Below, one piece after another: positions 7,191 to 24,489 of a stretch of DNA of 64,000 bases. Position 1 is the stretch's first letter; every line of letters starts with the position of its first letter. This DNA is from Sphagnum magellanicum (Eukaryota > Streptophyta > Sphagnopsida > Sphagnales > Sphagnaceae): assembly GCA_021904315.1 (NCBI GenBank), contig CM038919.1, positions 20,935,666-20,999,665 on the forward strand. The letters are read 5' to 3'. The notes under the pieces are model-generated. The model was not told the origin of the DNA. It was given only the letters and a program-made list of their open reading frames with translations, and searched no databases. Made by a program: the position numbers and the translations under genes.

Positions 7191-7829
7191 GATGGTGTTT
7201 TGCCTTACATGGAAGAAGGCCCCGACATTTGTACGTGCACATAGTTGCTATTGCAGGCAGTACAAAAGTCTCACCTCGCTCTTTTTCTTAACACGATTTC
7301 TTTTTTGGGCAGGGTTTCAGTATGGCGCGCATGTAATGTTTGGGAGAAAGAAGGGGCCGTTTGCTGGCATTTATTTACTATGGTTTAGTACATATAGGGT
7401 TTAGGCGCATGTGAAGCGCAGTAGGTAACGTGTAGGGTAAAGCCCTAGGGTGGGGATTTCCTGAAAATAAGGGGCCTATGACAAGGCGACGGCTGAGTCC
7501 AGCCCCGCATTTTGCAAATGTCCCCCACCCATGGGTAAAGCACAAGGCATAATTCATCATGAATTGAACCTATGTTGATCACCAGGGGTATGAATGGGAG
7601 GCTTCTTACACTTACAAGTAGGAATAATTTCTCTCCCATCCTCGAGGAGTAGGCATACTATCTCTCCCAATTTTGAGGAGGGAAATTGATGGATATAAGG
7701 TGTTTTCCACATACATTATATATAGGGGAAGGGTCTAGGTTTAGACCCTTCCTCTATGTAAAGCACCTCAACTTTTTTAATCTAACATTGTTTTCTTTTG
7801 ATGCATCTTTCTAACATAAAAAAGTCTTA
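7191..7829. other. Non-coding stretch, slightly GC-richer
   Basis: No recognisable gene. Small open frames at 7192-7404 and on the minus strand at 7378-7639 show no family motifs. A short GGGTCTA..TAGACCC palindrome lies near 7733-7750. Confidence 0.4.
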
Positions 7830-8800
7830 AAGTGACGTGTATGTTTTTTTTTGCCATTTTTTTTTATTGTTTTAGGTTAAACCATATGTATTTAGTAAGG
7901 CAAGCTTTTCACCTTTTTTCTTTTCGGTGCGCATTTCTCACAACAACTTTTGTTGATTTTTCATTGTATTATTTTCATTTTGCCATTCTTGCGTTTATTC
8001 TCTTTAGTGCACACTTCTTGTAGCATGGCTCCTTGCTGCGTTCTTTTCATTTTGTTGTTCTTGTTTTCCTTCTCTTTAGTATGCCCTTCATGCATCTTTT
8101 GTTGTCAACTCTTCATTGCATTCTTTTCATTTCATTGTTATTGGTTTCTTTCTCTTCAATGCATATTTCACACATCAGTTATTACAGGCTACGTGTTTCT
8201 TTCTTTTCATTTCATTGTTTTCATATCATCATTGTTTTTATTTGTTGGTTTTTTCTTCATCTTGTTGCTCTTGTTTTCAACGCACATTTCTTCCATGCAT
8301 TATTTCTTATGTTCTTTGTTTCAACAATTGCGCTATTTCGTTTATATTTTGTGCGCATTTCTTTTAACATTTTCGTTCTTTTTAATGCACACTTCATACA
8401 TGAATTGATCCAAGCTTTTTGTTGTTTTTTAAAAATTTCATTGTTCTTACATCATTTTCTCTACTCAACAACTCATTGGTTTTTCTTGATCTTACTAGCC
8501 TTATTTTCAAGGTGCATTTCTTCCATGCACTACTTCTTTTGCTCTCTATTTTAGTAATTGCATTGTTTCATTTTTGTTTCATGTGCACCTTTTCCATTGG
8601 CTCTTTCTTTGAACTTATTGTTTTTTTTTACAATCAATTTTTCTTCTTTTGTGGCTACGTTTTTATTTTGGCACATTTCAATTTTGCGCGCTTGTGTGAA
8701 CATCTTTTCTCCTTCCACCTTAATTTTTTTTTAGTTATTTCATTCATATCTTGTTTTAATTCCTCTATTGTTTGATGTGTGTAAGTTTTATTTTGCACAT
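7830..8800 (+). repeat. Pyrimidine-rich degenerate tandem array (~78 bp)
   Basis: T/C-rich plus strand made of diverged units that repeat words such as CATTGCATTCTTTTCATTT, TTGTTCTTG, TCTCTTTAGTGCACA and TTCTTCCATGCA. Equivalent points fall near 7957, 8033, 8111 and 8190, a spacing of ~76-79 bp. A larger block beginning near 8247 is repeated near 8476, about three units later. The open frames here (F, L, S, H and C-rich) follow from base composition and repetition, so I do not call them proteins. Confidence 0.7.
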
Positions 8801-9193
8801 CTATGTGACCTTTTTTTACCTTTATATTTTCATGTTTGTCTTCAGTACTAGGGCATCATGGTGTCTCTCACATTATAATTGTTTTTGCATCTTTCATCAT
8901 GCCTACTATTTGCACCTATTTTTGTCCTTTTTCTTCCCCCCATGCTCACATTTTCACTTCTTTTCCAAGTTTCATTCCTCACTTTTTAAATTTGTTATTG
9001 TTTCTTGTGTGCGGATGTTCTTTTGTTATGTTTTTGTTTTGTAAATTTTTTTAATGCAGGTTCCTCTTTGCTTACAATTTCCAACTTCATCTTGCATTTT
9101 CAAACAATGTAATGTAATTTTCTTCCTTTTCTATTTTTTTTCCCTTATGTATCTTTTTAAAAAAAAAAACTATTTTTACAATGTTTACTGTTC
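8801..9193. other. T-rich non-coding stretch
   Basis: Continues the pyrimidine-rich composition of the array without clear units; ends in TTTTTAAAAAAAAAAC. Nothing else seen. Confidence 0.5.
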
Positions 9194-9526
9194 ATGAAAC
9201 ATTTAAGAAAAAATTATGTAATGAAGGTTCTGCAGGAGGAAAAGCTCTTGATGAAGGATATATTACTTTCATCTTTTTCTTTACCTAGTGAATTTTTAAA
9301 CTTGCAACCTTCCAGTTTCTATCGTGCTATGATTACACCATCATTGATTACTAATGTCTTTGAATTGTTGTGGTCCACTAATGGAGATGACATTTATGTG
9401 AAGTGCATTCAACTTCATGAATTTATTGTTACCTTTTATGTTGATAAACCTCATGTTGATTTCACTTGGTTGCATGCTAGTATGGATAAGCCTCCTCTTC
9501 ATTCTACTATATACATCTTGAAATAG
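9194..9526 (+). CDS. Unrecognised 110-codon open frame, possible 5' part of the recombinase relic
   Basis: A 110-codon frame with ordinary amino-acid composition, unlike the low-complexity frames upstream. I recognise no domain. It lies ~350 bp ahead of the decayed tyrosine-recombinase-like gene on the same strand, and frames continue between them (for example around 9540-9640 and 9760-9870), so it may be an upstream exon or N-terminal part of that element. No start or splice signal decides this. Confidence 0.3.
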   Translation: MKHLRKNYVMKVLQEEKLLMKDILLSSFSLPSEFLNLQPSSFYRAMITPSLITNVFELLWSTNGDDIYVKCIQLHEFIVTFYVDKPHVDFTWLHASMDKPPLHSTIYILK

Positions 9527-9876
9527 CTAGTGATTTTTATGAACATTTTTAAAACCCTTACATCAGTTTACATTTGGAAGACTTTGATTTCTTTCTTAAT
9601 GCCTTTACATTTGCATTTGTTGTTGATTTTCATAGTGAAGTTTTTATTTTTGTACCTTTTCTTTTACCTCTTCTTGTATTTGATCCAAGTTTTCATTCTA
9701 ATCTTCATGTTGTTTCTTTTACATCTTTTCCTTTTGTTTAAATTAATATGCCTTCAAGACATTAGGTTGTTGAAAGGACTAATTGTGTGTCTCCTATTAG
9801 GGAGCCAATTTGAAAATTTTGGTTTCTTGAGTTTGATGATAAGGAAATGGAAAATGTCAACAAGGGAGGTTGAAAA

Positions 9877-11356
9877 ATGAGCAAATATGCCAAACTTTGG
9901 ATGAAAAATGCGTTTGATGAATGGAAATTGTTTTGTGGTTTTGACACAACAAAATTAATTGTTAATTTGTTTGAAGATGAAGGGTTGATTAAAGACCTCG
10001 TGGATATGTTGTCATCTTTTGTTTTGTAAGTTACAAAAAAGATGGTAACTTATATCCTCCAACCCGGTACAATTTTTTACCATTTCTTGAATGTCTTTAT
10101 AATTAGGTTTCTTTTTTTCATCATGTGTTTTTTTCTTTCTATCTTATTTATGCCTTTATAGGTTATGTGTTTCTTTATGTTATTAGGTTTAAGGTTTATA
10201 TGTAAATTTTAAGTTTTTTTAAAAATTCATTTTTGTTCTTATAAAAGAAACATTTCTTGTATACTTGATGTTTCTTTCTAGTTTTAATTTGTTTTTATAT
10301 TTTCTAATTGGTTTGTGTTTTTGCACATTTATGCTTTTATTATGTTTTTTGACTTGTTTTTTTTACAACATTCAAGCCTTGACACGTGACATTGGGAAAT
10401 TTGTTAGGCAAAAGTAGTAGTGACTCATGGAATTAGGTAAAACACCTACAATTCCTTTAACATATTCACAAATGCAAGGTATCATCGTGTGAAAATTATT
10501 CAAGATGAAGCAGCTCTTTGAATGTCAATAGTTAGTCTCAACAAATCAATCAAAAAATTTGACATTCTATCCATTGAAGAAAAATAAAGGATGTTGGCAC
10601 AAATAATGTGTTAACCTACATTACCTTGTAGTCTGAACTTCAAATTTGGTTATTTTTTCATGCAATTTTTAAAAATTAGAGGGTGTTTTGAATTCCTCAT
10701 GTTGATTTTAATGAATTTAATTTGGTTTCATTACCTACTTGTGTTATTTTAAGGTTTTGTCAAGGTGTCTCCAAGAGCTAGTGTATCGACATCATTCATT
10801 GTTCTATTGATCGGCTTAGGTTTATTGTTGACTACCTAGTTGTTGATGTTATTGAGACTTTCAAAAAACTTGCCCATCATCATCCTATTTCTTGGCCTAT
10901 TGATAAGCTTGGATCACATATGCTATTCTTGCAGTCTAAACCTAAATGGAGGTTTTCTCATGATGTTTGGTTCACTATTGCTCTAATTGGTCGAAACCAG
11001 TTACATTTCATTATGGGCAAACTCATTGGTGATTTTTTAGATTTGAAAAATGTTACTTTCTAATAAAAATGGTCGAGGTGTTGGAATCACCCAGATGAAG
11101 GAGGCACTTGTGCCATGTGAATACAAGATGGAAGTAACTAGTCATTGAGATTTAAATTCATATGGAAAGTAAGTTTTTAATTTTTGTTTTCTTTTTTATT
11201 TATTTTCATTTTCTTTTGTTTTTATTTATTATTATTTTTTTCATCTTCCTTTTAAGTTTTTGTTTTTTGTGTGTGTGTAGGTATAACCAAATAGATACAC
11301 ATTTTCAAAATTGGGCCATGCAACATATTATCAGTAAAGAATTGAAATTTAGTTGA
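9877..11356 (+). pseudogene. Decayed tyrosine-recombinase-like (DUF3504/Crypton-like) gene
   Basis: Pieces read in order on the plus strand. 9877-10070 gives a helical segment containing FDTTKLIVNLFEDEGLIKDL, then VTKKDGNLYPP after a TAA in place of a sense codon and a 1-base shift in an A run. 10470-10600 gives RYHRVKIIQDEAAL and later FDILSIEEK. 10900-11040 gives KPKWRFSHDVWFTIALIGRN. 11050-11168 gives NKNGRGVGITQMKEALVP, then EYKMEVTSH, a stop, and DLNSYGK. An intron of 112 bp (11169-11280, GTAAGT...TGTGTAG, phase 2) is followed by YNQIDTHFQNWAMQHIIS. The order matches the C-terminal boxes of tyrosine recombinases: an N-H-S-x-R-like box (here N-K-N-G-R, after a 1-base deletion), a T-G-H-R-like box (here T-S-H-stop) and the S-Y-x-x-Y tyrosine. 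The DUF3504 assignment is my inference from these boxes. It is clearly inactive here. Confidence 0.5.
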
Positions 11357-12130
11357 TTATTATGTTATGAAGAAGAATTTGTTAAAAAGATTGCTACCTA
11401 TGTGAAAACAAAGGTAAGTAATTGCACTTTATTTCTAAGGTTGTGTTTTTTATTAGCGACCATTTTTTTGTATTTCATTTTGTTGAAAGTTGCATGCAAA
11501 CATCAAAACTACCTACAACAATTCTAGATTCCATTGTAGATTACTTTGAAACTAATGCAAAAGGACCTAAAGAAGCAAACCAACTTCATTTTCCAAAACC
11601 ATTTTAGGGTTTCATGATAATGTTTGTCATATTTAACTTTAAGTACTGCAAGTTTTTGTCTTTCATTATTAATGTTTTTAAAAAAATGCAAGTTCGTTAT
11701 AATGTTGGAGAAAACATAGTTGCTTATAGAACTAGTCATATTGGCTTTGTGGCTATTTATGTTGCTGTGAGAATTGGTGGTCATTTTATGAATGATGACC
11801 TTTCTATTGTTGTGTTGACTTTTAAAGTTGTTGGTAGTCCTTCTCTTGTCAATGTTTTTACACCTTCTATTTTAGTGAATACAATGAACAATATGTCACC
11901 TATTGTCGTTTTTACTTATCAAAATAATGCCTTTGTACAAATACAAAATATTGGTGGATTTGTAATTGGTTTGGAAGACCCATTCTAGAACAACATGTTC
12001 AAAAATAGTTGCCCAAGTACAAAGATAGGTTGGATCCATCTTTTCATGGCCACCGTTTCATACCACCAATGTTAACACAACATCTAGCCACGTTTTCAAC
12101 AACTTTCACAATTGTCCTATTAACGTCACT
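11357..12130 (+). pseudogene. Possible 3' remainder of the recombinase-like element
   Basis: After the recombinase boxes a short exon-like piece (EEEFVKKIATYVKTK, ending at GTAAGT near 11413) is followed by a 124-codon frame at 11614-11988 containing HIGFVAIYVAVRIGGHFM and QNIGGFVIGLEDPF. Frames on the same strand continue to about 12130 with small shifts. I do not recognise a domain. Same strand and contiguity suggest it belongs to the element upstream. Confidence 0.35.
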
Positions 12131-12469
12131 TACATTGTTGATCCAAAATCAATTGCCTTAACATTCCTAGACATTGTTCATAGTTCTTGATTTTCCAACT
12201 TTCCAATTGCATCCTCATTTTGTAGTTTTTTCGAGATTTTTTGTTGTTGTTGGCAGTAGATGGATAGTGGTCAAGCATGTTATCAAGACATATTTTTGTC
12301 TCAACAATAATTTCTTTATTGTAACACATCCATGATAAAGATTTTAGGGCAAGAATGTGGAGAGGATGACAAAATGACAAATGTCTAGATTTCATGAGGA
12401 TGCTTGTTTGGGATGTTTCTGATTTTGAATGAATGATTTTGGGGAGCTTTGTGTTGACTATTGAATTTT
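12131..12469. other. Non-coding stretch
   Basis: A minus-strand frame of 89 codons lies here but shows no known motif. Nothing else seen. Confidence 0.3.
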
Positions 12470-12870: not shown

Positions 12871-14264
12871 TGAGTTAAATCCAGATGCACGAACACTGAG
12901 AGTGCTGATCCACAGAGTTCTGCCTTGAAAAATCTACACTGTGTACGTGTATCCAAAAAAAATTTCCTTGGTTTCTATTGTATTTGTAGATTTTGCCTTT
13001 TTTGAATTTTTATTTATGCATCCAGCAACATTTGTTTGAACTCCATTGTTGGAAATTTTTTAATTATCGATTTTATAAAATTTTAATAATGAAAACGATT
13101 TTTGTGAATTATATATAATTCAGCGGACCACCAAGGATAAATGGTAAGTGGTCAGGAAACAGTTTTCTGTTGGGTTCCAGTTTCCTAGCTAACCAAGGTG
13201 AGACCAAATATTAACTCAGTTCAGGTTCATCCACAACCAAGTAATAACGGCCATCCAACGGATGGTGCACTGGTGTGTGCTGGTTCACTGTGGCCACTTG
13301 GCGGTACCTACTCGCGCTTCTATTAAATAGTGAGGGGTGCAGCCACAGGTTTTTCTTTTCTTCTTTTTGGTCCAGAAGGAGACATTTCATTGGGCCATCG
13401 CCAATATTTTTGGAACATGGGGCACTCCCCAACATTAAAGCCTATATATGCTTCCTTCCCCCCAAAATAGAAAAATGCTTTGTCATGTGAAGCCTTTGGC
13501 CCCAACCTTTACAGCTTTAGTTAGTACATTGGGAAGTAGAACCATGGCCAAACAATATGGGATAAAAAAATGAGGTGTGGTTGGGAACATTTTATGGAAC
13601 ATATTCACTACTTGACGAGCATTTTTGGAACCTGATGGGAACATCTTTGGAACTTGAGGGAACAGTATGCCCCCCTGCCCCCTCCCCCAAAAAAACTCAA
13701 AAGAGCAAACTTAGCACCCTGCAGCCTTCTCATTGGCTGCATGAAAGTTCTATTTCCAAGACGGTCTGTCACCATTTTCAACCTGCACCAGTACCCCCAT
13801 TCTGAGTTGGGGGTACTTATTTTTCAATACATGTGAAACTGGCAGAACAACAAGTAGAATCAGATCAAGATTACGTACCTGCCACCTGGGAAAAAATGCA
13901 TAATGCAGGTACTTGCATAGGACACCAAAACTGGTTTACATGTTAGAGAACAAGAAGTGCCTGTCCCTACCTGCTCCCTGGAGACTAAAGAGACGAAGCG
14001 AATGCCATGGGAGCGCGAGGGGAACTTCAGATTCTGGCAGGCACAGCAAATTCTGCCACCCAGGGAGTCCGGGAAACTGACAGAGGCCGGGAAACGGAGG
14101 GCCTTAGTGAAGCTCACAGGCAAAGTCGGTATACAGTTGCCCGAGCTCTCTGTTCAAGTCTCAGCTCGCTGCTTCCGCGAGATGATCATTGCAATGCATT
14201 TAGTTACACTTATGTATATGGTCATTCTTTGATTGGGTTGGAAGCAGTTTTGGATTTGTGACAT
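12871..14264 (+). promoter_or_regulatory. Upstream region of the receptor kinase gene
   Basis: The first part (12880-12960 and 13240-13312) holds pieces of the dispersed repeat seen at 6255-7190, including GTGCTGGTTCACTGTGGCC near 13278. A TATATAT word lies at 13443-13449, ~820 bp before the start codon. From ~13860 the base composition becomes more GC-rich, and 13957-14261 contains overlapping short open frames that may be part of a long 5' leader. An in-frame TGA directly precedes the chosen ATG. No initiation site can be fixed from sequence. Confidence 0.35.
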
Positions 14265-17200
14265 ATGTTTATCACGTCAGTGATGGCTTGCAGTCAAGGT
14301 CTAAATATGGTAGCTTTTAGTAGTGGTCTGGGGGATATAAGTCTTGGGCACAGGAGAGCACTTGGGTATGCAGCTAACGTGTTTGTCGTGGTCTTGGTTG
14401 TGAGTTTTCTGCCTTCAGTGCTCACAAGAAGTCTTCAAGGCACAAGAAATAGCTGCTTATCACAGTGTGGGAACGTCGCAATTCCGTATCCATTTGGCAC
14501 CGGTCCGGGATGTGGTTTGCCGGAGTTTTCTTTGGATTGCACTCGTGACGCGGGGTCAAATTTCTCAGCAAATCCGGCGCTGCTGCTTACACCCCCCTGT
14601 GGTCCCTCTGGCAACTCTTATCAGGTCACAAGCATCTCAGCCAACACACTCATCATCAACGCGACTAATCTTGTAGCAACCTCCTGTGACTATAGTAACG
14701 ACGGCGCTGGTGCAAGCACAAGCGCTTGTCTAGGTCCAGCTTCAGCGCCTTATGTTTTTACAAAGGAGAATAATTTATTTGCAGTGCAGTGCGGCGCATG
14801 GGGCTGGTTATATAATGATGATGATGATGATGATGAAGGTTTAGTTGGCTCCTGCTCAATTGATTGTACTGCTGACAGCCAAAATGAAATAGCCTACTGC
14901 CATCACTATGAGTGCTGTACCACACCACAAATTCCCAGCGGTGTGCGCAACATCACAATTCGTGGAGGAGGTGACTGTGGATGGGTCAGCGTGATCTACC
15001 CTCGTACTTATGAGGGGGTACCATCACTATATTGGGGAGAATGGGGAGTTCAGTTGGGATGGGCCATTCCTGGACCGAGTTGCCAAAACGCGACAAAGCT
15101 GGCTAACTATTCTTGCGATGCGACGGGAACCTGCCAGGATTCTCCATTCTCAGGTCTGACAGGGTATACATGTGCGTGCAATGCTGGTTACGATGGGGAT
15201 GGATACGCTAACGGAATTGGATGTCACGGTAAGCATGACGTCAAGAGCTGTGATATTAGTGTTCTACTTAGAATTTCATATCTTTTCGTCTTGGCCATGT
15301 CTAGGAAACCGTTATTCAAGACCTTGCAAAGCAAGATTCTAATCAGGGCCTAGAAGGAACGAGTGGACATATGATAGTTTTGTGTGAAGATTACCTTGAG
15401 TGATGGCCGAAACAAGAATCGCACATGTTTCAACCAAATTGTCTTTGGTCTTCTTTGAAGTCCTCATTTAATGCTCCCCATCGACCAATGTGTGCAATTT
15501 TTAGCTCGGTCTTGCTCGTATGAAATAGTAATTGTGTGCAAGTCTGAGAACTAGGCAGATAGCTAATCAGCGTTGTCAAGGCAGCATGCATGTCCTTTGA
15601 TTGAAAATGTTTTTAGTGCTCTGATTGCAGATATCAATGAGTGCTTAAACTCGACATTGAACAATTGTTCAAGAAATGCTAAGTGTACAAACACAATTGG
15701 AAGTTACAATTGTAATTGCACCACAGGCTTCTTGGGTGATGGCTACACAAATGGATCTTCCTGTACTGGTAAGTTCCTAATGTTGAATAAGTGATGTCGG
15801 TGTCATTGGGAGTCAAACTTAGGCATCCCAAATAGTGAACTTCACCTGAAAGATGTGGTCAACATATAAGTTCATAACGTGATCTATTGAAAAACAAAAT
15901 TCATTTCTTGTAGTTGTAGATATCAACAAATGCTGGAACTCCATATTGAATAACTGTTCTCCAAATGCAGTTTGTACCAACACAACTAGAGGTTACTATT
16001 GTAATTGCAACAAAGGATTTTCCAGTGATGGCTCTCTGATGTCAATTTGGCATACATGTCCTTTGTTTGACTGAAAATGTTTTTAAAACTTTGATCTGCA
16101 GATATCAATGAGTGCTTGAACTCGACATTGAACAATTGTTCAAGAAATGCAAAGTGTACAAACACCATTGGAAGTTACTATTGTAATTGCACCACAGGCT
16201 TCTTGGGTGATGGCTACACAAATGGATCTTCATGTATTGGTAAGTTTCTAATGTTGAACAAGTTATCATGCTGGTGTCATCGTAACTCTGACAAGGTTGG
16301 GGCATCCCATACAGTAAACTTTGCCTGAAAGATGTGGTCAACATATAAGTTTATATAAAATGATCTATTGACAAACAAAAATTTATTTCTTGCAGCTGCA
16401 GATGTCAACAAATGCTTGAACTCCACATTGAATAATTGTTCTCCAAATGCAGTTTGTACCAACACAACTGGAAATTACTATTGTAATTGCACCAACGGGT
16501 TCTTTGGTGATGGCTCCCGTGATGGGACAGGATGTAAATCTATTACGAAACATAAACTTTTACTGGTTGCAGGTATTTCACAATGCTACCTACTATCTAA
16601 ACTATTGTATAATTTCTATTATGCAATACCCTTGAAGGTTTTCAAGGTTTATTGTTATCTGATGACTAAGGAGTATATGTACAATCTTTTGATGCAAGAG
16701 TGCAAACATTGAAAGACAAATGTCAACTTTGAAAGTTTGACTAAGACCTAATTTCATCCAAATGAGACAATTATAATCCTACCATGATGCATCAAAGTAT
16801 CAAAACATGATTGTTGACAATCGTTAACTTTGTTCATCAAGTATGAAACATGAATAATAGATCTTTGCTTCAAAGTTCAACTAGAAACTATTTTATAATC
16901 AATCCTTATAGTAGTCAACTTTGAGGTGTCATTGTGAATCATGATCTTGTACAATGTTAACAGAGGTCAATAACCAACAAATTTGTTGTTGTTATGTAAT
17001 TGTTGTAATGGGTTGCAACTAAGGACACCTTGAAATGCATTTTTCTAATAGGACTATCGACAATACCAATTGCACTTGTGGGGCTTGGAGGTGCTCTACT
17101 AGCATTGTTGTGTTGTATTAAAAAAACAAGGAAACATAAGCAATTTGCTCGAAGAAATTTCGAAGCCTTGGGGAAGTTGAAGGATGTTTTCACATCACTT

Positions 17201-18262
17201 ACTAATGGTGAATCAAGTACTGCGACTCTATTTTCTTTGAAGGAGCTAGTAAAAGCTACAAACGGATTTGCAAATGACCAAAAGCTTGGTGTTGGTGGAT
17301 TCGGGACAGTTTATAAAGGGACAATGGAAAGTGGATTGACAGTGGCAGTGAAAAGGACAAATAAAGTGAACACAATTGGCACTCAACAATTTCTAAATGA
17401 AGTGGTTGTGTTGTCGCAAGTCAATCATCGAAACCTTGTTCGTCTTCATGGATGTTGCTTAGAAACTGAAGTACCAATGCTCGTGTATGAATATGTCCCA
17501 AATGGAAACCTTAGTGAACATTTACGAGGGGAGAAAACTAGTGAGCTCGGACACTTGACTTGGCCCAAACGCATGCAAATTGCGATTGAAACTGCAGAAG
17601 CCATTACTTATCTCCATTCAGAAGCAAATCCACCCATATATCATAGGGATGTGAAATCAGCCAACATTTTGTTAGATAATAAGTATGGTGTTAAAGTATC
17701 AGATTTTGGAATTTCAAAGTTGATCCCACTAGATGCAACCCATGTTTCTACAGCAGCACGAGGGACACCGGGCTATTGGGACCCTGAATATTTTATATCA
17801 TACCAATTAACTGACAAAAGTGATGTCTATAGCTTTGGAATCATTTTGTTGGAGTTGATAACCTCTCAACCTCCCGTGGACTTCACTCGTGATGAAAAGG
17901 AAATGAGCTTGGTAGCCATGTGCATTCCCCAAATTAAGGATGGTAATGTAGAGGCAATTATAGATCCCAAGTTGTTATCGTCAAACTTTGAAGAAATGGA
18001 AGCAACTCTACAAGAAATCAACAAAGTGGCCATTATGGCAATGCATTGTTTGGCATTCAAAGGAGATGATCGACCTTCCATGAAGCAAGTGACAGAGGTT
18101 TTACATCAAATCAAAGGTGATTGTCAATGGAGTGAAGGCAAAAGAAACATGTCAAGTGAGTTTGGACTTGTTGGCATTCATGAAATTGAATTGGTTCAAT
18201 TATTGGATGCAAATATTCCAAGCTCTAATCAAAGTTCCACAACATTGTCTACTTCCATTTAA
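14265..18262 (+). CDS. Wall-associated receptor kinase-like protein (WAKL), five exons
   Basis: Exons: 14265-15228, 15631-15768, 16102-16239, 16402-16572 and 17052-18262; all introns are phase 1 with GT-AG ends, giving 873 residues. An in-frame stop just upstream makes 14265 the first ATG, though ATGs at 14283 and 14307 are alternatives. Residues 39-53 are a hydrophobic signal/anchor. About 64-280 is a cysteine-rich GUB_WAK-type region (IPYPFGTGPGCG, later HHYECC) that in this family faces the cell wall. EGF-like segments follow at the exon 1 end and in exons 2-4 (DINECLNS..., DVNKCLNS...). A transmembrane stretch lies at ~472-493. The kinase domain (~544-815) has GVGGFG at 550-555, VAVK lysine 571, HRD aspartate 670, DFG aspartate 688 and GTPGYWDPEY, so it should be an active RD serine/threonine kinase. 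The fourth EGF-type exon copy (15920) is broken. Oddity: a six-Asp run. Closest known type: WAKL receptors for wall signalling and defence; the exact ligand is unknown. Confidence 0.92.
14817..14834 (+). repeat. Coding GAT trinucleotide repeat
   Basis: Six GAT codons in a row encode a six-aspartate run (residues 185-190) in the extracellular region of the receptor kinase. It is likely a length-variable coding microsatellite. Confidence 0.9.
15574..16530 (+). repeat. Tandem duplication of two EGF exons
   Basis: Two copies of a ~467-bp unit lie head to tail: 15574-16040 and 16041-16530. Each holds the intron end with CATGTCCTTTG and GAAAATGTTTTTA, an EGF exon of 138 bp (15631-15768; 16102-16239), an intron containing GAAAGATGTGGTCAACATATAAGTT-like sequence, and a second EGF exon. 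The breakpoint falls inside the second EGF exon of copy 1, after its GATGGCTC, and joins it to intron sequence. Confidence 0.9.
15920..16033 (+). pseudogene. Truncated EGF pseudo-exon inside the receptor kinase gene
   Basis: Preceded by an acceptor (TTGTAG), it reads DINKCWNSILNNC and onward to GFSSDGS like exon 4, then loses homology at the duplication breakpoint. No good donor follows, and reading on gives a stop near 16070. It must be skipped for a full-length product; inclusion would truncate the protein before the membrane segment. Confidence 0.85.
16573..17051 (+). other. Last intron of the receptor kinase gene
   Basis: A 479-bp AT-rich intron with donor GTATTT and acceptor TTCTAATAG. 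Its boundaries join LLLVAG to LSTIPIAL across the start of the membrane segment in frame (phase 1). No internal features seen. Confidence 0.8.
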
Positions 18263-23347: not shown

Positions 23348-24489
23348 TGTTGGTATGAAAAAAATATTGACAAGTGCAAATAGTAAAAGGTGTAATTAAT
23401 ATGTTTAAAGATAAAATGGTTAGTACAATATCTAATGGCATCATTGATGAAATGTATACCTTATTTAGTGATAATGGTGCAATGGACATCCAAACCGGGT
23501 AAAAATGTGTTCATAAAAAAACTTAGAAATCATTACAGCATTATTGATGTGGAACGCTCATGGTTCCTCCCACTTTATTTTCTCATATAATCTTTTTCAC
23601 ATCATTCTTTCTAATAGGTATTCATAAACATTTTGTAACCACTCATGTTGTAATGTGAACATATGAGCATCAATGGTTTGATCAAGTACTTTAATAGGTT
23701 CAAAATTATTGGATAATCGGTTCAACGCATTTGCCATTAGGTGAGATCTACCAAGCTTGTATATAATCTTGAAATTGTATTTTAAAAACAACAATAGCCA
23801 TTTAGCTAACATGTTAGAAACATGCAGTTTATTAACTAAATACATTAATGCCATATGAACAACATAAAATACAAACTTGTTACCTAATAGATAATGTATA
23901 AACATGAATAAAACATAGACCATAGGTAAAGCTTCTCTCTCAATGGTGGTATAATTTTTCTCAACAAAATTAATAGTTTAGAAAAAAGACATAATTAGTT
24001 GATCAAACTTACCAGTTGGATTATGGGTAAGTATTGCCCTTACTACTAACTAACATGTGTCAATATGAACATAAAATTCTAGTTTTTAATTGGGATTGAT
24101 CAAAATGGGAGCTTAAATGTATCGATTTTAATCTTTTCCCAAGCGGTTTGACATTCAACTATCCACTCAAATACCTCAATCTTCTTGAGTAATTTTGTGA
24201 TAATAACCATAATAAAGGCAAAAAATTTAATTAAAGACCAATAAACCTAGGCCATTCCGTTAAACACTTGGAATTCCTAGGGTGTTGTGGGTATTGGCAT
24301 CTTGACTATAGCCTTTATTTTTATTTTTTTAGAAACTATAGATCCCAATATAATTCTAAAACAAACCATGAATGCATAATTTTTAGGTTGAAACTAATGA
24401 CAATTCTATACGCTTGAGTAAACACTTTTTGAATTTCTATACAATGCACCCCAAATTCCTTTAGAAACCCAAATGTGGGTCCCAAAATG

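Follow-up and report, generated by a model that had tools for sequence, protein, structure and literature searches.

Cryptons are on record in animals, fungi, oomycetes and a diatom (Kojima and Jurka 2011, PMC3212892). In that account, a tyrosine recombinase is the sole domain recognised in them, and its core-binding domain is followed in order by Arg, Lys, box II, His and Tyr. The animal DUF3504 genes (KCTD1, KIAA1958, QRICH1, ZMYM2-4 and WOC) are presented there as conserved host genes that have lost most of the catalytic residues (PMC3212892). DIRS, PAT and Ngaro elements also encode tyrosine recombinases but carry reverse transcriptase, and some of them, among these members of the DIRS group, are recorded in Viridiplantae (PMC4157794). 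Our search of titles and abstract openings found no published report of a Crypton-like element in a land plant, and an entry in Repbase is possible.

The window, i.e., the whole stretch of 64,000 nucleotides analysed here, very probably contains a dead, right-truncated copy of a DNA transposon with a gene for a tyrosine recombinase of the Crypton/DUF3504 type. The host is the peat moss Sphagnum magellanicum and not a gymnosperm or other seed plant, as a reading of the sequence alone (the sequence-only reading) had assumed. The family of this copy resembles Cryptons in having the recombinase as the only recognised domain and in the order of its catalytic residues; the short direct repeat that flanks two short copies (L052 and L053) on either side may be a further likeness. 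Unlike Cryptons, it resides in a plant, its gene is spliced and has an intron ahead of the catalytic Tyr, Lys replaces the box II His, and it has inverted-repeat arms with a palindromic end block and MITE-like short copies. Because the published Cryptons are described with direct repeats of 4 or 6 bp at their termini and without terminal inverted repeats (PMC3212892), strict membership is not claimed, and the family appears, from its sequence, to consist of Crypton-like DNA transposons with inverted-repeat ends. The animal DUF3504 genes belong to the same protein family, judging from the profile match to a single member-like protein; in contrast to them, the moss family is dispersed and has mostly retained its Tyr, His and Lys columns.

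Structure of the recombinase gene

The tyrosine-recombinase boxes of the window are colinear and all lie on the plus strand. Box II reads N-K-N-G-R (11062-11076), the third box reads T-S-H-stop, a decayed T-G-H-R (11137-11148), and the last is divided into S-Y-G-K, ending at 11168, and Y-N-Q-I-D, starting at 11282. The sequence-only reading had picked out these boxes together with a phase-2 GT-AG intron beside the catalytic Tyr. Each piece was found, in the stated order, and the observation is confirmed as real. The feature is indeed present in the interval first assigned to it (9877-11356) but is larger, with the start of the gene near 9181 and the left end of the element near 7721.

The broken recombinase gene (9181-11413, plus strand, like all its parts) includes the core-binding domain and, further on, the catalytic Tyr. 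Exon 1 (9181..10066, approximate) encodes an N-terminal extension and, from about 9862, the core-binding domain, and contains a frameshift and stops. A probable intron 1 (10067..10368), of phase 2, was read from L009 and L059; its donor GT at 10067 was deduced from L059 and L060, and its acceptor AG is mutated in the window copy. Exon 2 (10369..11168) encodes the catalytic domain, including the codons of Arg I (10678-10680), the hairpin Lys (10773-10775) and His (11143-11145), the last adjoined by an Arg codon that is now TGA. Intron 2 (11169..11280) has GT-AG borders and interrupts the Lys codon preceding the catalytic Tyr. Its donor follows the AA of this codon and the acceptor side gives the G, indicating phase 2. 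An interval at this position was also found in L009 and L059; the relatives L058 and L062 have no gap, and so no intron, before the catalytic Tyr. In exon 3 (11281..11413), the first whole codon is that of the putative catalytic Tyr (11282-11284), followed by the downstream residues and a donor, GTAAGT, from 11414.

A coding-like C-terminal region (11487..12160, plus strand) follows and probably represents later exons. It contains an open stretch of 126 amino acids (11608-11985), to which L002 has a similar one, and had no match in Pfam. The T-rich region on the 5' side (7779..9180, plus strand), which has imperfect internal repeats, was taken as non-coding and may be a promoter or leader. The AT skew was -0.36 at 8001-10000, an internal repeat, D3, was present, and the 5' region is in part common to other copies. 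An AlphaFold model of a 118-residue piece from the window had a pLDDT of 41.9, too low for use.

No other domain was recognised in a scan of eight element stretches, seven in the window and one in L013, none of them from small or broken frames. Large DNA viruses can carry tyrosine recombinases (PMC10871703, PMC13236599), and the relic could in principle be the remnant of an integrated virus of this kind. However, the eight stretches scanned held no viral genes, the gene is spliced, the element is small and has short derivatives, and none of 93 pattern matches on viral contigs was confirmed as a relative. A viral origin is thus extremely improbable.

Relationship to DUF3504-type recombinases

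Scans of single copies against Pfam, PHROGs and NCBIfam identified no recombinase family; the matches they returned were weak, scattered and to unrelated families, with DUF713 in one row (E 0.0053) as the strongest. The DUF3504 family, searched against the genome, gave 0 matches and was equally silent in 14 control genomes. Three PDB searches also found no recombinase, two of them returning one unrelated match each (E 0.92 and E 0.65). Since the single-copy scans and the DUF3504 search were negative, L009, which has four stops in exon 2 but stays in frame throughout it, was taken as the guide for a frameshift-aware alignment of the copies. Profile A3 was built from 17 rows of this alignment (L001-L003, L005, L009, L010, L012, L016, L023, L026, L028, L029 and L058-L062), the remaining copies being excluded.

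The reference was an animal DUF3504/Crypton-type protein whose sequence did not come from a database record. Pfam recognised it as DUF3504 (40.5 bits) and QRICH1 (32.4 bits), with Phage_integrase at 25.9 bits, below the cut-off. In hhalign, A3 aligned with this protein over 297 columns with a probability of 94.1, an E-value of 1.2e-7 and a score of 59.2, and the alignment was colinear from the core-binding domain to the Tyr. The control scores were 14.3 for the reversed sequence, 17.8 for the kinase of the window, 12.4 for XerD, which showed no similarity to the family profile, and 25.5 for the best of 200 shuffles. Because A3 includes some hand-joined letters, the comparison was redone with 22 script-made rows of the frameshift-aware alignment and no hand-joined ones. 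The probability was then 89.6, with E 1.9e-6 and a score of 51.3 over 299 columns, against 14.6 for the reversed control and 26.8 for the best of 200 shuffles.

The animal reference protein was also searched against the 439-Mb genome and pointed to three places (E 0.16, 0.29 and 0.93). Two of these overlap listed matches of the family, and the third, L073, reads TNKIGPGTDITHMEQMLVLVEYNM and by eye appears to be a member. Each of the three E-values is non-significant, and it is their coincidence with places of the family that counts as evidence. The genome search and the family-profile comparison both point to the Crypton/DUF3504 kind of tyrosine recombinase that the sequence-only reading had named. 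The profile comparison indicates homology to the tyrosine recombinase superfamily over the core-binding and catalytic domains.

The failure of every curated recombinase profile to match any single copy scanned would also fit a chance likeness, with boxes arising accidentally in an unrelated repeat. Yet the boxes recur in 21 aligned copies, each of two independently made alignments gave a family profile that outscored all 200 shuffles, and searching the genome with the animal relative led to the family, so an accident of this kind is scarcely credible. The sequence-only reading had named a lack of hits to recombinase profiles as refuting it; single-copy HMM scans did find no recombinase, and kinship became apparent only in the family-profile comparison and in the genome search with an animal relative. 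The earlier interpretation as a whole is partly supported. If the family is what it seems, it would be a caution that decayed families of this kind can escape curated profiles when sequences are scanned singly.

Conservation and decay of the catalytic residues

Catalytic columns were counted in 21 copies picked from the frameshift-aware alignment, each copy being taken once and most incomplete ones set aside. The hairpin Lys and the box II Asn were present in all of them (21/21 each). The box II position occupied by His in the classical motif was Lys in 17 of the 21. His was found in 16 of 19 aligned copies and the catalytic Tyr in 17 of 20, the latter from a slightly different copy set. The Arg columns were largely decayed: box II Arg remained in 4/21 copies, the others having mostly CAA, TAG or TGA, and the Arg I column was R in 7/21 and K in 11/21. 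Every column of the catalytic set R-K-H/K-R-H-Y (compare PMC3212892) was present and in order. The Arg codons look as if they had decayed via C-to-T changes on either strand.

The variability of third codon positions relative to first and second positions was read for 32 of the 210 pairs among the 21 copies, using a protein-guided alignment that may bias the ratios somewhat. Within the window's subfamily, the ratio was 0.60-1.09 (16 pairs), third positions being no more variable than the others. Between subfamilies, it was 1.23-1.92 (16 pairs, L001 or L009 against L022, L023, L026, L028, L029, L059, L060 and L061). The divide between the subfamilies follows divergence (≤0.28 versus ≥0.29) and was set after the table had been viewed. 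Stops numbered 147 in 5390 codons. The ratios indicate that the subfamilies diverged under coding constraint and that single copies then decayed freely, with apparently neutral decay inside the window's subfamily.

Copies in the genome

The genome searched comprised 438,994,042 bases in 31 contigs. With the DNA of 9190-12150 as query, at least 57 matches were found, the window included, among 40 of 147 candidates scored. L002, about 62 kb downstream, is a copy with 85% identity. A 149-residue catalytic piece used as protein query gave at least 150 matches on contigs C1-C19, with 30-97% identity, among 150 of 305 candidates scored; this is not a copy count, since in some cases a single copy accounts for two rows. 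A stop was absent from the matched stretch in 15 of the 150 matches listed. The related copies that the sequence-only reading had suggested looking for were thus found, by DNA and by protein, as a dispersed family. The intact ones were not, none of the copies read being intact.

Local duplicates, such as L002 near the window, and this lack of an intact copy among those read would also be expected of a domesticated host recombinase gene family that spread by segmental duplication and now consists of immobile pseudogenes. A cluster of at least seven copies lies on C9 at 7.86-7.97 Mb, and the four of them that were read have a common outer left flank; the cluster is apparently a segmental duplication. 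However, the listed protein matches represent all of C1-C19, most at well below 60% identity, identical ends occur in differing flanks, and short copies carry both ends. A family of host pseudogenes is accordingly an improbable source of these copies.

Element ends and insertion sites

The left end of the window's element is a palindromic block, TATAGGGGAAGGGTCTAGGTTTAGACCCTTCCTCTATG (7721..7758, plus strand), and similar blocks occur at other left ends. It is followed by the left inverted-repeat arm, TAAAGCACCTCAACTTTTTT (7759..7778, plus strand), whose inverse, ...GTTGGAGTGCTTTA, was found at the right end of the copies that have one. Similarity to the right-ended copies stops at 13117 (plus strand), where the window copy and L002 have both lost the true right end. 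Just downstream of the relic is a wall-associated-kinase-like gene (14262-18259) with GUB_WAK_bind, EGF and kinase domains. On the minus strand at 23600-23977, a further segment resembles, by eye and from its motif, the RNase H portion of a Ty3/gypsy element.

Right ends were variants of ...AACAAAGGAAAAAAAGTTGGAGTGCTTTA at six loci (L003, L008, L009, L010, L012 and L025), and the flanks beyond them were unlike. Left ends have this arm in inverse form, TAAAGCRCYCCAACTTTTTT; the inverted arms, of about 20 bp, lie at or near both ends. Variants of the palindromic block are located directly outside the left arm in the window, in the C9 cluster and at eight places, L064-L071 (8 of 20 rows), whose outer flanks are unlike one another apart from the similar ones of L067, L068 and L070. 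The block was absent at the left end of L012. At L063, where the L041 element was expected to have its left end, neither an end nor any similarity to this element was seen. With one mismatch allowed, the end pattern occurred at 17 sites, compared with 12 for the reversed control.

TAAAGC was considered as the outermost left base and was rejected, as the palindromic block lies directly outside it at left ends in differing flanks. The right end of L012 directly adjoins another palindromic block and arm, resembling the left end of a second element in tandem.

Four loci (L044, L050, L052 and L053) resemble short copies carrying both ends and look like non-autonomous, MITE-like derivatives. L052 and L053 each have TTATG at both their ends; this repeat is imperfect in L050 and absent in L044. 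The joined flanks of L053 match a second filled site on C5 and also C12:122229-122319 (L074), which is uninterrupted and has a single TTATG (77% identity over 93 columns). L074 resembles an empty site, for which the evidence is modest because only about 24 bases match left of the join.

The right flank of L053 is a repeat, found at C13:17168246-17168325 and elsewhere. Similarity to it sets in only a few bases from the insertion point, 35 of the 37 further rows having their start at query 83-97. L051 has the same flank, and L041 and L045 have a similar-looking one. This may reflect target preference or a larger composite. Sequence similar to this flanking repeat (ACGTGTAGGGTAAAGCCC) also occupies 7430-7720 of the window, starting some 290 bases ahead of the element, and by eye is perhaps a solo LTR.

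The end architecture also bears on whether the relic could derive from a DIRS-, Ngaro- or PAT-like retrotransposon after decay or loss of its reverse transcriptase. Such a source would be in keeping with the DIRS-group elements of Viridiplantae and with the derivation of plant ALOG domains from DIRS1-type recombinases (PMC3537659). The ends, however, are unlike those of tyrosine-recombinase retrotransposons, and eight element stretches scanned had no match to reverse transcriptase or methyltransferase. The recombinase aligns with the DUF3504/Crypton type, and those of DIRS and Ngaro are reported not to match DUF3504 (PMC3212892). We therefore regard a retrotransposon origin as very unlikely.

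Proposed mechanism and significance

For the preferred reading, a Crypton-like DNA transposon, the features described suggest the following course. The recombinase would have bound the inverted arms near the element ends (TAAAGCACYCCAACTTTTTT). Cleavage would have been performed by the Tyr of K-Y-N, aided by Arg I, the hairpin Lys, the box II Lys and Arg, and His. Release of the element, probably in circular form, would have been followed by its insertion at short TTATG-like sites, with a short direct repeat left behind.

On balance, we lean towards regarding the family as an undescribed and diverse land-plant (moss) lineage of tyrosine-recombinase DNA transposons. Its gene would be spliced and have a box II of the Lys type, its ends would consist of inverted repeats and palindromes, it would have given rise to MITE-like derivatives, and it would once have been active through several subfamilies, inserting at TTATG-like sites. 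If true, the end architecture of the moss family would make the question of the target site testable, and a dispersed land-plant family would broaden the set of hosts known for tyrosine-recombinase DNA transposons.
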